42,712 nucleotides of DNA from Planctomycetota bacterium (lineage in GTDB: Bacteria; Planctomycetota; Planctomycetia; Pirellulales; UBA1268). Location of the stretch: positions 1 through 42,712 of the forward strand of contig JAGWWA010000008.1 in the NCBI GenBank assembly GCA_018970605.1. Reading direction: 5' to 3'. Positions within the stretch are counted from its first letter, which is position 1. Each line of letters begins with the position of its first letter. Of the stretch, positions 36,572 to 42,712 are shown piece by piece. A program made the translations under genes and the position numbers. The notes under the pieces were generated by a model. That model was not told where the DNA came from and did not search any database. It saw only the letters and a list, made by a program, of their open reading frames with translations.

Positions 36572-36677
36572 GCACGGGTTGGAAACCTGTGCTGCGGGGC
36601 CTGTGCTGCGGGAATGGAGGGAGCGTAGGTCTTCAACCTGCGCGAGAAGCCAACACAGGTGCGAAGCCTGTGCTACG
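36572..36677 (+). repeat. Two family-B intergenic palindromes
   Basis: The copies at 36572-36599 (CACGGGTTGGAAACCTGTG, then CTGCGGGG) and 36654-36677 (CACAGGTGCGAAGCCTGTG, then CTACG) flank a less conserved segment. Compare 25876-25901. The arms stay complementary while the bases vary. The 113 bp between the small membrane gene and the convergent YhaN-like gene contain nothing else. Confidence 0.65.
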
Positions 36678-39600
36678 TGCGGCGGCGGCCGCGCTTCGGC
36701 TCGACGCTCGCTGACCCGAAGAAGAAGGCCTCTGCCGGCCAGAGGTCGCCTTCGTTGGCCGGGGGCGAGACCGGCGTCGGGGCCTCTGGTGGTGGCGGGA
36801 TGATCGCTGTCGCCTCGACGACCGGCGGCCGCGGCTCGGCCGTTGGTTTCGGCCGCGGCGTGGGGAGCGCTGCGGGGAGCGTCGTCACGGCGCCGAACAG
36901 CGGTGCCGGATCGGTGAACGAGCGGACGTGGGCGCCGGCGGCAGCGAACGTCTTCGCCACGTGTTCGTGGCAGGTGAGCACCAGCATTTGCCGGTCAGCC
37001 GCCTGCTCCGCGATGAACTCGACGAGCACACGGGCGGCCGAGCGGGCCCGGGCGTCGTCGAAGTTGACCAACGCATCGTCCATCACCACCGGCAGGCTGA
37101 CGTCGTGTCGGTTGAGGTCGCGGATCAACGCCAGTCGTAGGGCGAGGAACACCTGCTCGCGGGTGCCGCGGCTGAGCCGTTCCGGATTCCAGATCTCGCC
37201 GTCGCGATCGTGAACCTCCAGACGTGCCTCGTCGATGGCCGTCGTGATCGACGGATACCGACCGTCGGTGAGTCGGGCGAGCCACCGCGAGGCCTCGCGC
37301 AGGACCGGGGGCTGGTGGTCGCGGGCCACGGCGGCCCGCGTCTGCTCCAGCAGCACGTGGGCCCGGTGGAGCAGGTCGCGCCGCCGCTGCTGCTCGCCGA
37401 GTCGCTCCTCGATGGAGGCCAGTTCGGCCTGCAGGCTTTCGAGCGTGTGGTCGTTGGAGGCTGCGGCCACGCGGTCGGCCACCACCTGCCGCCGCTCGGT
37501 CGCGGCGGCGAGCGCGGCGCGGTGCCGCTGCGTCACCTCACGGGCCTCGGCGAGCCGCTTCGCCAGCGGCACCACGTGGGCCTCGGCCAGCCAGCGGTCC
37601 ACCTCCGGCGGCTCGGTGGTCCGCCTCCGGGCTTCCGACCAGGCGAGTTCCGCCACCGCCGCGGCCGTGCGGGCCGCTTCGTATTCCGGCCGCCGGTCCA
37701 CCTTCGCGAGGAACTCCTGCTCCGTCTCCACGCCCCAGCGGACGAAGAACTCCTTCACGGCCCGTCCTGCCACGCGAACCTGACGCAGCACGCTGCGATG
37801 CCGGCGGCGGGCCGACTCCAGTCGCCGGGTGAGCTGGCTCCGGCGGCGGATCGCCGACCGTTCGGCGTCGAGCCGCTCCTCCAGCAGCTTGAGGTGGTCG
37901 GTGGGCGTGGCCTCGGGAACGAGCTCGCACTCCACGAGCACCTCGTCGATCCGTCGCGAAAAGGCGGCGAGTTCATCCCGCTTGTGGCGGGCCTCCTCCG
38001 AAAGCCGCTTGCGGTCGTCGTCGAGCGTGAGGAGCGTATGCCGGTGCGCGGCGATCTGCCGCACCTCGCGGGGCGTGAGCCCGGTGGGCAGGCCGCGGGA
38101 CGAGAGCGACTTCTTCCAGCGGCTGCGGGCCGCGGTCCGGGCCTCCAGGGCGTGGGCGACAGCCTGTTCGGCGAGCGTCACCTTGTCGGCGAGCACGTGC
38201 ATCGAACCCTCGCGGGCGAGGAGATCCTCGAGCCGGTCAACCTCGGCCTGCGCCAGCGCCAGTCGCCGGTCGAGTGACAGCGTCGCGTCGGCCGGGATCG
38301 CGCCATCGAGCGTGCCGCACTGCTCGACGAGCTCGTCCCGTTGCTCCTTTGCCACCTCGAGCTGGTGCCGCAGGGCGTCGAGCCTGACGGTCGAGTTCTT
38401 GTCGAGCGACCAGGTCGTCACCGACGCCACACCGGCGCCGGCCAGGCCGAGGGCCGCCATCGCGTAGGCCATCTGGCCGGTGACCTCTCGGGGCAGGAGC
38501 AGCCCCGAGAGCAGCATGCCGATCCCGAGCGTGAACAGCGTGCCAAGGCCGATCAGCCACGGGGCCGGCACGAGCTGGTTTCCCACGCTCTCGGCCACCT
38601 CGCGGTCGATGCGGGCGATCGTGCGGTCCAGCTCCGCGAGCTGATCCCCGGCGGTGATCCGCTTCCGGATCGCGGAGGCTCGGCCCGTAGCCTGCTCGAT
38701 CGCCTGCGCGATCGTGAGCCCCGCGAGGCCCGACCCGGCGACCGTCACGCTCCCCTTGGTGTCGTTGAGCGACCGCTTGGCCTCCGTGAGCGCCCGCTTG
38801 GCCTCGGCCAGCTCGCGGGCGGCGCGGGAGCAGTCGCGGGCGCGGGCCCGCAGGGGACCGAACGAGAGGGCGAAGCCCTCGGGCAGGAGCACGTCGGGGA
38901 TCGCGCCGCCATCGACGTCGAGGTTTGCGGCGACCGGCACCACCCGCGAGAGGCCGGCGACGCCCACCTGCTCGCCGAACCGCCGGGCGGCAAGCCGCGC
39001 ATGACTCTCGGCGCGGGCGGCCTCGGCGGCGAGACGTTCGAGCTTCGGCGCTTCATCGAGGATGGCCGTGACGATCGCCCGCTTCCGCCAGACGGCGGTT
39101 TCGACGGGCAGCTCCCGCAGCTGGCGGGCATACTTCGCCCGAAACTTCTTCCGCGTCTTGGCGAGCCGTTCCAACCGCCGCAGCCGGCGATTCGCGAGCC
39201 GCCACGTGTCGCGATCGGGGTGAACCAGCGGCGCCGAGTCGAGGGCGGTGAGCTCCTCCGCCGTCCGCCGCCACTCCGCGTGCAGGGGCTCGAGCGCGAG
39301 CACGCCGCGGACCACGTCCTCGGACTTCATCGCCGCCTCGATCCGTGGCTCGATGCCCGCGATCTCCGCGTCGAGGTGCGCCAGCTCGGTCCAGAGGCCG
39401 CCGGCGACCACGGCGGGAGAACCGGCCGCGGCCATCCGCTCCAGCACGTCGGTCCGGCGGGCCTCGAGCGCGGCCAGTGGTGAGACGGTGGCATTGGGAG
39501 AGTCGATCCGCTCGATCGCCTCGCGGAGGTGGCCGAGCACCCGCGCGACCGTCGAGCGGTCGAGGCCCGCGGCGAGTTCGTAGAGCCGACGACCGCAGCC

Positions 39601-40098
39601 CTCGGGCTCGAGCGTCCGCAGCTCGTGCAGTTCATCGAGACCGAACGCCATCACGCTGGTGAACGTCGTCTCGTCGATGTCGCCGACGACGTCCTGCAGG
39701 TAGATCTTGTGGCGGCTGGCGTGGTCGTGCCGGGGATCGACGTCGGCGATCCGTACCAGATCCCCGGCGTCGCCGCCGAGGCCGACCACGTCGTCGGCAT
39801 AGCTCTCGTTGGTGAGCGTGGTGAGTTCGGGGCCCTCGTGCCGACGCTCGATCGCCGTCAGCGTGTCCTCCGGAGGCATGCGGACCAGGAGCCGGCCGGC
39901 GCACGGCTTGCGGGCGTCGAGCACGCCGCGACGAAACAGCCCCTCGAAGCCGAAGAAGACCGCGCGGACGAACTCCAGAAGCGTGGTCTTGCCGGTTTCA
40001 TTGGTGCCGTAGAGCACCTGCACGCCGGGACCGAGCCGGTCGATGGAGGTGCGGTCGAGGGCTCCGAAACGTTCCACCTCGATGCGTTCGATGAACAT
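36673..40098 (-). CDS. YhaN-like SMC/RecN-type AAA ATPase with membrane segments
   Basis: An 1141-residue ATPase. The N-terminal head has Walker A GTNETGKTT at residues 31-39 after IERIEVERFGALD. Long coiled coils are interrupted by two hydrophobic helices near residues 510-565 (WLIGLGTLFTLGIGMLLSGL and MAYAMAALGLAGAGVASV). The C-terminal head has LSRGTREQVFLALRLAL as the ABC signature and LPVVMDDALVNFDD as Walker B. It belongs to the COG4717/YhaN group, relatives of SbcC. The C-terminus carries a Pro-rich extension of about 60 residues. The ATG at 40098 has GGAG 8 nt upstream. The gene upstream (40172-41446) occupies the place of the usual nuclease partner. Confidence 0.88.
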   Translation of the reverse strand: MFIERIEVERFGALDRTSIDRLGPGVQVLYGTNETGKTTLLEFVRAVFFGFEGLFRRGVLDARKPCAGRLLVRMPPEDTLTAIERRHEGPELTTLTNESYADDVVGLGGDAGDLVRIADVDPRHDHASRHKIYLQDVVGDIDETTFTSVMAFGLDELHELRTLEPEGCGRRLYELAAGLDRSTVARVLGHLREAIERIDSPNATVSPLAALEARRTDVLERMAAAGSPAVVAGGLWTELAHLDAEIAGIEPRIEAAMKSEDVVRGVLALEPLHAEWRRTAEELTALDSAPLVHPDRDTWRLANRRLRRLERLAKTRKKFRAKYARQLRELPVETAVWRKRAIVTAILDEAPKLERLAAEAARAESHARLAARRFGEQVGVAGLSRVVPVAANLDVDGGAIPDVLLPEGFALSFGPLRARARDCSRAARELAEAKRALTEAKRSLNDTKGSVTVAGSGLAGLTIAQAIEQATGRASAIRKRITAGDQLAELDRTIARIDREVAESVGNQLVPAPWLIGLGTLFTLGIGMLLSGLLLPREVTGQMAYAMAALGLAGAGVASVTTWSLDKNSTVRLDALRHQLEVAKEQRDELVEQCGTLDGAIPADATLSLDRRLALAQAEVDRLEDLLAREGSMHVLADKVTLAEQAVAHALEARTAARSRWKKSLSSRGLPTGLTPREVRQIAAHRHTLLTLDDDRKRLSEEARHKRDELAAFSRRIDEVLVECELVPEATPTDHLKLLEERLDAERSAIRRRSQLTRRLESARRRHRSVLRQVRVAGRAVKEFFVRWGVETEQEFLAKVDRRPEYEAARTAAAVAELAWSEARRRTTEPPEVDRWLAEAHVVPLAKRLAEAREVTQRHRAALAAATERRQVVADRVAAASNDHTLESLQAELASIEERLGEQQRRRDLLHRAHVLLEQTRAAVARDHQPPVLREASRWLARLTDGRYPSITTAIDEARLEVHDRDGEIWNPERLSRGTREQVFLALRLALIRDLNRHDVSLPVVMDDALVNFDDARARSAARVLVEFIAEQAADRQMLVLTCHEHVAKTFAAAGAHVRSFTDPAPLFGAVTTLPAALPTPRPKPTAEPRPPVVEATAIIPPPPEAPTPVSPPANEGDLWPAEAFFFGSASVEPKRGRRRT

Positions 40099-40171
40099 GT
40101 CAGGCTCCGCGATGCGTCGGTATCAGGGGGAGGTTGGAGGGCGTGGCCGAGCGGTGAGGCCGACTCGACGG

Positions 40172-41446
40172 TCAGACCGATTCGATCAGTTCGAGGGCGA
40201 GCCAGCCGGCCTCGCGGGCCTCGGGGGCCGCGAGCGTCTGCGACTCCTCGACCATCGTCACGATGTCGGCGAGCGCCGACGAAAACGACGTGGTCGATCC
40301 CGGCCGGCCGCCGGAGCGGGCGTGGCCGAGGGGGGCAAGCGACTCGGTCGGCTCGGCGACGAGTTCATGACACCAGACGCGGAAGGTCTTGGCATCGTAG
40401 AGCTCGCGGAGGCGGGAGAGCGTCTCGGCCGCGATCTCACCCACGCGGACGCGGCGGGCCACGTTCGTGCCGCAGGCGACGGAGCAGCGGACGAGCTCCA
40501 CGGTCGCGGCGCGGTCCGGCGGCTGCTTCTCCAGTGCGGCCCAGATGGCGGTGGCGAGTTCCTCGTCACCGCCTGTGGACGATTCGACCGACACCGTCCG
40601 CCAGGCGACGCGATGGGTGGGAACCTCGTGCCAGGTGCGCCGCCAGTCGGCGTGCGGTGCGGCGAAGGAGTCGGCCACCGTGGCCTCGATCGCCTCCCGG
40701 TCGAGGAGCGTGAGCGTACAGCAGGCTCCGGGCGATGCCTCATCGACACCGCGGGCCTGCAGGGCGGGCAGGAAGTGCACGCCCGGCGGCAGGGCCTGCG
40801 ACTGCCGGGATGCCCAGATCCAAAAGGCGCCCGGCTGCGACCAGCTGGCCGACGCTGTTGCCGCCGCCGCGAACGCCGCCGCCGAGGGTGTGGTCCGCGG
40901 CGTGGGAACGACGCCGAACTGTGGCTCGTCGGCGGCCCATCGCTGCTGGCTCCACAGGGCGTTGTCCCAGCCGACCACGATCCGGCGGTGGAGGGGCGAC
41001 GGATCCCCCGAGACGGTCGCCACCGAGCCCGCGCCCGTCGGGCCGTGTGCCGAGACGATCTCGACGGCCAGGCCGCGGACCTCGAACTCGAGCGGTGCCA
41101 GCGGCGTGACGAAGAACAGCCCGCGGGGCTCGCCGAGCATCCGCGCGAGCTCGTGACAGAGCAACGGCTCGTCCACGACCGCCACCGTGCGGCAGCCGAC
41201 GGCGGCGAGGTCGGTGATCAGGCGACGCAGGGCGGCGGCCTGCGCCGGGCTCGCGCGGGACGGATCGAGAAGCCTGCCGCAGATCACCAGCGCCGCGGCC
41301 TGGCTTCGCGTGGCCACCGTGGCCGCCTCCGCGAGCGCCGCCCCAGCGGCCTTCGAGACACACTCGGCGATGTCGGCCGGAGCCCCTTCGGGTGCGGCGA
41401 TCGGGCGGTGGATCGCCGGGTCAAATGCAAAGACGATGTCGGCCAC
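40172..41446 (-). CDS. Possible SbcD/YhaO-like protein with eroded catalytic motifs
   Basis: A 424-residue protein starting at the GTG at 41446, which has AGGAGG 8 nt upstream; a GTG at 41455 is possible. YhaN/SbcC-type ATPases are normally preceded by a metallophosphoesterase nuclease, and the layout here suggests the same fold. However, the expected motifs are missing. DxH appears as FDPAIH (9-13), GDxxD as GRLLD (57-61), GNHD as VDEP (91-94), and GHxH as GWDN (159-162). SAHGPTG (132-138) is the only near match. The C-terminal ~120 residues (LVRCSVACGTNVARRVRVGE) resemble the YhaO C-terminal region. If the alignment holds it is probably a non-catalytic partner of the ATPase. An unrelated protein is the alternative. 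The gap to the ATPase gene is 73 bp. Confidence 0.5.
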   Translation of the reverse strand: MADIVFAFDPAIHRPIAAPEGAPADIAECVSKAAGAALAEAATVATRSQAAALVICGRLLDPSRASPAQAAALRRLITDLAAVGCRTVAVVDEPLLCHELARMLGEPRGLFFVTPLAPLEFEVRGLAVEIVSAHGPTGAGSVATVSGDPSPLHRRIVVGWDNALWSQQRWAADEPQFGVVPTPRTTPSAAAFAAAATASASWSQPGAFWIWASRQSQALPPGVHFLPALQARGVDEASPGACCTLTLLDREAIEATVADSFAAPHADWRRTWHEVPTHRVAWRTVSVESSTGGDEELATAIWAALEKQPPDRAATVELVRCSVACGTNVARRVRVGEIAAETLSRLRELYDAKTFRVWCHELVAEPTESLAPLGHARSGGRPGSTTSFSSALADIVTMVEESQTLAAPEAREAGWLALELIESV

Positions 41447-41665
41447 GCGGGTCACCTCCTCCACAATGGGGCGCGCCGAACCGCCGCCTTCCAGGCGCCG
41501 ATCCGTGGCGGAAGGAAATACAGGAAAGATGGGGGCAATGTAACGCCCGCAGGCCAAATCACGCCACGTCAAAAAACGCGGCCCATCGGCCGGGAAGCCC
41601 CGCCGCCTGAACCAGCAGAACACGCTCGTCACTCGCGCCGCGCAATCCCGAGGCCCGCATGCCGC

Positions 41666-42307
41666 TCACGGCAGTGAAAACAGCGTGACGAGCGCCGGCA
41701 GCACATCGGACGATTCCGGCTGAAGCACCTCCTCGCGGAGCACGTCGAGGCCCGCGTTCCGGAACAGGTCGCGGTAGGTGTCGATCAAGTAGGGATGAAG
41801 CAGGAAGTCGCGGTCGGCCCCATAGGTGTTGGTGAGCAGCAGCCTGCCCCCCGGCGCCAGCGACTCCACCATCTGTCGGGCCATCCAGGCCACGTCGAAC
41901 ATGGGATAGAGCCAGCCGAAGCAGTAGATCGCCTCGACGACGGTGATCAGGTCCCAGGGGCCCTCCTCGACGTAGTCGAACGTGACCGCGTTGGCCTCGC
42001 GAAAGGTCGCGTGCGGCGCGGTGACCGCCTGCCGCGCGCGAGATATCGCGGAGGGGGCGATGTCGAGCGAGAGCACGGCGTCGGCGAGGCCGGCCAGGCC
42101 GGCCGTCAGGTTGCCGTTGCCGCAGCCCACCTCGACCACGCGGCCGTAGCGGCGATCGCCGAGCAACCGCATCTGCAGGTCGTGCTTCCGGCCTGCGTGG
42201 ATCGCCTCGTCCTCGTCCGCAGCCCAGGGATCGCCTGCGGCCCAGCGTTCCTCGAACTCCTCCGCGATGCTGCGAAGGATCTCGTCGCGATCGACCGGCT
42301 CGCTCAT
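41666..42307 (-). CDS. SAM-dependent methyltransferase, NodS-like
   Basis: A 213-residue class I methyltransferase. Motif I is VVEVGCGNGNLTAGLAG near residue 58, the acidic residue after beta-2 is in LSLDIAPSAISRAR, and motif IV is WDLITVVEAIYC. MVESLAPGGRLLLTNTYG ends the core. The layout resembles NodS-type N-methyltransferases, but the substrate is unknown. The start is the ATG at 42307 with GGAG 6 nt upstream. The 219 bp between it and the SbcD/YhaO-like gene contain no clear gene. Confidence 0.85.
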   Translation of the reverse strand: MSEPVDRDEILRSIAEEFEERWAAGDPWAADEDEAIHAGRKHDLQMRLLGDRRYGRVVEVGCGNGNLTAGLAGLADAVLSLDIAPSAISRARQAVTAPHATFREANAVTFDYVEEGPWDLITVVEAIYCFGWLYPMFDVAWMARQMVESLAPGGRLLLTNTYGADRDFLLHPYLIDTYRDLFRNAGLDVLREEVLQPESSDVLPALVTLFSLP

Positions 42308-42712
42308 GTCGCTCTCCGGAGGGGCCGAAAACCACGGGTCAGGGTACAGGTTTCGTAGCCGTCTCGTCATCATCCGCCGCGCCCGGCGAACGCCGTCAGA
42401 GGTGCGCGCCGCGGAGGCGGACGACTCCGTCCCGCAGCCGGATGGGCAGTTTCGCGTGCTCGAACGGCGGCGGCGACATCCAGACGTTGCAGCCGCGGGC
42501 GAATCACGCTGGACGCCGCATCGGGTCGTGGTTCACCCCACGCCTCACGGCGACTAGAGCGCATCTCCTCTCGCTGGAGCGATGAGTTGGAAATCCTGAG
42601 CGGGTAGGCGAGGGGGTCGGCGAACGCTCGAGGAGCCTTGGGCGTATCCTCGCCCCGGCGACAATCCGAAGGACCGCGAAGCGGAGACTTTTGCCGCCCC
42701 CGAGCCGTTGAT
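42308..42712. other. Window end without a recognisable gene
   Basis: I see no reading frame with family features. GTTCACCCCACGCCTCACGG at 42531-42550 is half of a family-A element. A gene whose start lies outside the window could still end here, but no such end is recognisable. Confidence 0.35.

Follow-up and report, generated by a model that had tools for sequence, protein, structure and literature searches.

Does a subunit of the Mre11/SbcD type that appears to have lost its nuclease site still serve the ATPase beside which it is encoded, and would such a pair still cut DNA? The question is raised by a gene in the window, by which we mean the whole stretch of planctomycete DNA analysed here (42,712 nucleotides). 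The gene lies on the minus strand at 40172..41446, stop included, and its open reading frame translates from a GTG start into 424 amino acids. A ribosome-binding site, AGGAGGT (41454..41460, minus strand), was found in the sequence and by scan 7 nt before the GTG. As an earlier reading made from the letters of the window (hereafter the sequence-only reading) had pointed out, the gene sits right upstream of one for an SbcC/YhaN-like ATPase of 1141 amino acids (36673..40098, minus strand; identified by Pfam AAA_27 and by motif and hydropathy scans), on the same strand and at a measured distance of 73 bp (40099..40171, minus strand). At the 30 loci of the window's family where this gap was measured it spans 13-94 bp. 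We take YhaO and YhaN to be the fitting names for the subunit and its partner ATPase. The evidence computed for this pair comprises a predicted fold, gene pairing, residue loss, purifying selection, ATPase motifs and mid-chain hydrophobic stretches.

The surroundings of the pair are plain. A methyltransferase ORF (41666-42373) lies upstream of the 424-aa gene on the same strand, and past the ATPase, on the opposite strand, are a 171-aa ORF without a Pfam match and an AI-2E family transporter. A Pfam scan of the eight neighbouring ORFs named only the AI-2E transporter (3/8) and left the rest unnamed, with no nuclease among them. Clustering of neighbours by ORF was left out because antisense ORFs of GC-rich DNA swamp the signal. 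In two relatives of the window a long ORF stands upstream of the pair (L079, 515-4120, and L055, 1-1917, both on the minus strand), and neither has a Pfam match at E≤1e-4.

Routine annotation says little about the 424-aa protein. Pfam and NCBIfam gave no match above their cut-offs, and the weak matches below them (Hydrolase_4, FixT, HAD and others) were dismissed; the PADLOC defence models gave no match either. A sequence search of the PDB with the family profile returned eight matches, the best to a protein acetyltransferase (E 0.019) and the next to SbcD (E 0.12-0.13), which is weak when taken alone. These results would suit a cofactor of the ATPase that is no relative of metallophosphoesterases at all, an idea that is hardly credible once fold and profiles are considered. 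An AlphaFold2 model built from 54 family sequences (the window protein plus its 53 orthologues) reached a pLDDT of 83.9 and a pTM of 0.84; a single-sequence fold, with a pLDDT of 46, was set aside. The sequence-only reading had placed the gene in the SbcD/YhaO position and had proposed a fold search as a check, which came out in its favour: all 36 PDB matches of the model at E≤0.001 are Mre11/SbcD entries (solved SbcD/Mre11 structures are 6s6v, 4lty, 3qg5 and 2q8u). The match is moderate, since TM-scores by query length are 0.37-0.49 among these 36 best matches, and identity across them is 6-14%. Searching a viral library gave 22 fold matches at E≤0.001, 13 of them named, of which 12 are nuclease, DNA-repair or phosphatase/phosphohydrolase proteins and one is just Orf75.

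A chain of profile matches leads to the same place. The window's family aligns with its order-level relatives at E 3.8e-19 (hhalign), these relatives align with intact YhaO at E 5.2e-44, and the direct alignment of the window's family with intact YhaO gives E 8.3e-9. Intact copies of YhaO (COG0420-type) from the order and phylum align over most of the length, including a QxR...E..G.C pattern. Pfam Metallophos is matched by 15/18 order-level relatives against 0/26 members of the window's family. Judged from a modelled fold, the profile chain and Pfam matches in relatives, the 424-aa protein is thus a relative of the metallophosphoesterases Mre11, SbcD and YhaO. It shares with SbcD/Mre11 a gene position adjoining a Rad50/SbcC-type ATPase and differs from them in the absence of the metal and catalytic residues.

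This absence was quantified in the 54 sequences of the window's family, aligned by profile to intact YhaO and numbered after P. furiosus Mre11. Apart from His85, His173, His206 and His208, the residue numbers are those we presume to hold for that protein, and we take metal site 1 to be D8, H10, D49 and H208 and metal site 2 to be D49, N84, H173 and H206. All positions that follow are on the minus strand and come from the profile alignment and counts. At motif I (DxH) the window protein reads D-P-A (residues 9-11; 41414..41422); its aspartate, D9, which corresponds to D8, is kept in 46/54 sequences and H10 in 0/54. Motif II (GDxxD) is replaced by G57-R58-L-L-D61 (41264..41278), with the first aspartate, D49, kept in 1/54, and motif III (GNHD) by D92-E93-P94-L95 (41162..41173), with N84 kept in 5/54 and H85 in 0/54. 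Residues 159-162, G-W-D-N (40961..40972), fall at the place of motif IV (LLHTS), which in the family is mostly G-W-D. Motif V (GHxH) lies approximately at W211-A-S-R-Q215 (40802..40816), a place that reads W-[GA]-[ST]-R in the family, its register being uncertain. With that same reservation for motif V, histidine occurs at the counted motif IV and V columns in at most 2/54 sequences. To the sequence-only reading all four motifs appeared replaced. Its GRLLD and VDEP lie close to the places given by our alignment; its GWDN had been set against GHxH and belongs at motif IV; and motif I is gone as to its histidine but survives in its aspartate.

A passage of PMC3175470 gives DXH-GDXXD-GNHD/E as the signature of the COG0420 family and names His173, His206 and His208. 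The signature is absent from the 424-aa protein, and these later histidines of P. furiosus Mre11 are missing from the window's family, with the motif V register uncertain. A passage of PMC8007570 describes the H85S mutant of P. furiosus Mre11 as inactive both as exo- and as endonuclease, and H85 is one of the residues absent from the window's family. Displaced ligands elsewhere in the chain, on which the claim of loss could have foundered, were also sought: over the 54-row alignment no column has histidine in more than 39/54 rows, and none of the three columns with histidine in half or more of the rows is a motif place. Intact YhaO, for comparison, keeps all eight scored residues in 22/22 rows, a figure that is true by construction because these canonical rows were picked as intact beforehand from the alignment; in the window's family little beyond the motif I aspartate remains.

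Acidic residues are nevertheless frequent at the old site: D9 in 46/54 sequences, D61 in 48/54, an acid at 161 in 49/54 and an acid at 93 in 44/54. Since they are this common, the pocket might have been rebuilt, D9, D61, D/E93 and D161 binding a metal or another ligand for a new enzymatic or sensing activity. We consider this improbable. One sub-group (L097-L104) has Asn or Ser at position 9, and where residue 9 is Asn, position 61 is often Asn or Ala too and position 93 Asn or Ser, yet the gene is kept; moreover, no histidine is conserved at any motif place.

Loss of catalytic residues together with divergence past Pfam detection is also what one would see in a relic decaying in the operon of its ATPase. 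The sequence-only reading had argued against simple decay, and the record of retention bears this out. The 424-aa protein was found in 35/37 genomes of the window's family that were searched, its own included; in two of these 35 (G004, G007) it is present just as contig-end fragments. The named collection has 59 loci, 53 with a full open frame and six partial, and frame and substitutions alike recur in 53 further orthologues. An ATPase ORF lies on the same strand at 55/59 loci, the four misses being partial matches, one of them (L111) of 39 residues. Pairwise dN/dS, computed for eight close sequences, stays between 0.09 and 0.30 in all 28 comparisons, residues such as W282, C325, R332, W358, E368, R411 and W415 are invariant, and the motifs of the partner ATPase are intact. 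The gene is kept under purifying selection, beyond chance, and with a partner ORF also present at every uncut locus sampled in 19 other families of the order (29/29, see below), decay is largely refuted and very unlikely. One match, on contig C492 of genome G049 (E 6e-4), was rejected as fortuitous: its ORF is unlike the family in the alignment, and G049 has the kind of partner gene one would expect on another contig, C477. The same gene family occurs in many metagenome-assembled genome records under the title 'Candidatus Kuenenia stuttgartiensis' and in others titled Pirellulales or Planctomycetaceae; to us these titles look like mislabelled bins.

With the metal-site residues lost and the gene under selection, this machine of the DNA-repair type probably acts on DNA but does not cut it. 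We therefore read the 424-aa protein as a nuclease-dead homologue of Mre11/SbcD/YhaO that has stayed with a Rad50/SbcC/YhaN-type ATPase in a structural or regulatory role, and put the probability of this reading at roughly 75%. A non-cutting partner had already been suggested by the sequence-only reading, and a metal site gone from a fold that is kept, in a gene that is retained, supports it.

The partner ATPase has the motifs expected of an ABC-type ATPase at both ends of its long chain, and shares them with other YhaN/SbcC-like ATPases (Pfam AAA_27, SMC_N): Walker A GTNETGKT, signature LSRGTREQ, Walker B VVMDDAL and H-loop VLTCH. Pfam AAA_27 scores above its cut-off and SMC_N below. The motifs are invariant in a 7-row alignment; across the ATPases of the window's family the first three are present, and the H-loop pattern fails in a few rows. 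No PADLOC defence model covers most of the protein; 22 models match at E≤0.01, the best being LmuB (E 1.9e-10, residues 508-1049), and the remaining matches are to short stretches or weaker than LmuB. A mid-chain zinc hook CxxC, a trait of SbcC/Rad50, was sought and is absent from the window ATPase and from all 75 ATPases scanned (0/75), with intact or dead partners alike. What sets the window ATPase apart from YhaN/SbcC-like ATPases is a pair of hydrophobic stretches in mid-chain, at about residues 509-568, with 19-residue hydropathy of 1.90 and 1.49; the second is weak, our own threshold being 1.5.

Such a stretch was found in 46/48 ATPases with a degenerate partner (43/45 and 3/3), the two without it being loci of family f21 where the ORF picked may be the wrong one, and in 10/30 ATPases with a partner listed as intact. 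The latter split into 9/20 outside the class, 1/4 in the window's order, 0/3 in f21 and 0/3 among the other pairs of the window's family. The one case in the order (L197) is an Ala-rich stretch lacking the second peak, and the partner of one of the nine outside the class (L298) has GNED for GNHD. Within the class, then, stretch and dead partner occur together; elsewhere an ATPase with a stretch of this kind can have a live partner. Hence we rejected the stretch as a sole mark of non-cutting: because 9/20 pairs listed as intact outside the class carry it, it does not by itself mean that no cutting occurs.

Could the complex still cut DNA because a nuclease encoded elsewhere docks in trans on the pseudo-subunit? 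Candidates exist, as TIGR00619 is matched at E≤1e-5 in 32/40 genomes of the window's family (in 5/40 above the curated cut-off), and the window's own genome, 75.8% complete, holds an intact SbcD-like protein on contig C161. That protein is encoded beside its own ATPase. Of the six family loci with an intact phosphoesterase that we read, three adjoin an ATPase (the window genome, G017 and G130); at the other three (G018, G024 and G012) a pattern search next to the intact gene gave no ATPase motif, so that these subunits may be free partners. With half of the intact subunits already paired and no nuclease named among the eight neighbouring ORFs, we think docking in trans quite unlikely. Intact and dead pairs also coexist elsewhere in the order: G127, G134 and G122 each have an intact YhaO-YhaN pair plus a dead pair at another place, and there the dead partners precede an ATPase with a hydrophobic stretch.

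The loss of the motifs is not confined to the window's family. The ATPase profile matches 112/117 genomes of the order, and we sampled 30 stretches upstream of the ATPase in 19 other families. One locus is cut by a contig end; at the other 29 an ORF of 414-531 aa lies right before the ATPase (29/29), and 28/29 of these partners lack both GNHD and GHxH, as does the 424-aa protein. The single intact one (family f6, G041) goes with an ATPase that matched the profile weakly (E 6.1e-38). Both motifs are absent from four more loci of the order as well (G125, G072, G121 and G069). Among 31 order sequences, N84, H85 and H206 are kept in none, and 19 retain the full set of D8, H10, D49 and H208, which, together with their detection by Pfam, distinguishes these pseudo-YhaO proteins from the window's. 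Two rows need care: L154 is a C-terminal piece scored as gaps, its other piece having the motif I aspartate only, and in L191 GNHD was missed through misalignment, a separate reading showing it present. If our assumed ligand assignment is right, this pattern amounts to a loss of metal site 2 and of the catalytic histidine while site 1 persists, and the window's family has gone one stage further. In family f17 of the same order (L193, L194, L214) the proteins in the YhaO position lack most of the eight residues, and a hydrophobic stretch is present in the ATPases of L193 and L194; this may be an independent trajectory.

Our best reading of the pair, which is a prediction, is a membrane-attached, ATP-driven, non-cutting complex of the Mre11-Rad50 kind. 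The pseudo-subunit and the ATPase would form the complex, the dead subunit capping or dimerising the ATPase heads. The hydrophobic stretches may form a membrane hairpin at the tip of the coiled coil, membrane insertion being read from hydropathy, and the ATP cycle, instead of driving cutting, would let the complex hold or tether DNA near the membrane, or sense it there. In a first, order-wide step the catalytic histidine and the presumed metal site 2 ligands seem to have been lost; a second step would have removed the remaining ligands in the window's family, with cutting presumably left to the separate intact pairs. More tentatively, and in a form that may well prove wrong, this could describe the Planctomycetia at large: a membrane-anchored Mre11-Rad50-like machine that has given up its nuclease and become, much like an SMC complex, a tether or sensor of DNA at the membrane, with an ancient pseudo-Mre11 capping its ATP-driven heads and separate pairs doing the cutting.

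Research on Mre11-Rad50 complexes treats them as nucleases, and what they do besides cutting is difficult to tell apart from it. A conserved pair that is naturally nuclease-dead across a whole bacterial group would, if real, open the nuclease-independent functions of these machines to direct tests, with living relatives offering graded stages of loss and some genomes with a dead pair also holding intact ones. It would also add a case of a pseudoenzyme retained for structure. No planctomycete YhaO/SbcD with a dead nuclease was described in the top results of a search of the open-licence PMC literature.

How far beyond the order the loss extends was read at 70 places (loci L198-L267), four of them in the order; three order places and one f21 place were left out. 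In f21, a family of the same class, 19/22 places lack GNHD, three of these 19 aligning in part only, and three places are intact, in two of whose genomes (G434 and G442) there is a degenerate copy too. At least three degenerate f21 copies keep the motif III histidine, as GQHD or GEHD (L225, L227, L254), and these count against our best explanation. On these motif readings the loss is widespread in the window's order and in f21, so the lineage-wide loss that the sequence-only reading had proposed to look for is borne out and reaches wider than it had supposed. An order-level profile matches 61/294 genomes of the phylum at E≤1e-8, a count in which absence means little because strongly degenerate members can be missed, as the window's own genome was.

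A tree of 66 rows puts the 21 intact ones on one side of a branch with support 93/77, which is not starred; a single loss event would be the simplest reading. The branch of the window's family is long (1.8 changes per column), and the placement of the family is unsure. Outside the class 40/44 places have GNHD; among these, motif V reads GGHR in one and GDWH in one, and one is cut before motif V. Two of the four without GNHD have GNAD and GNED with GHxH kept, and the remaining two, in G175 and G405, are without both. One f21 genome, G442, has three YhaO-like genes (L201, L255, L256), two degenerate and one intact. The outside-class copies of G175 and G405 (L244 and L246), with GNHD and GHxH lost, cluster in the tree, and their ATPases (L288 and L289) have a hydrophobic stretch, which may reflect an independent loss or a transfer.
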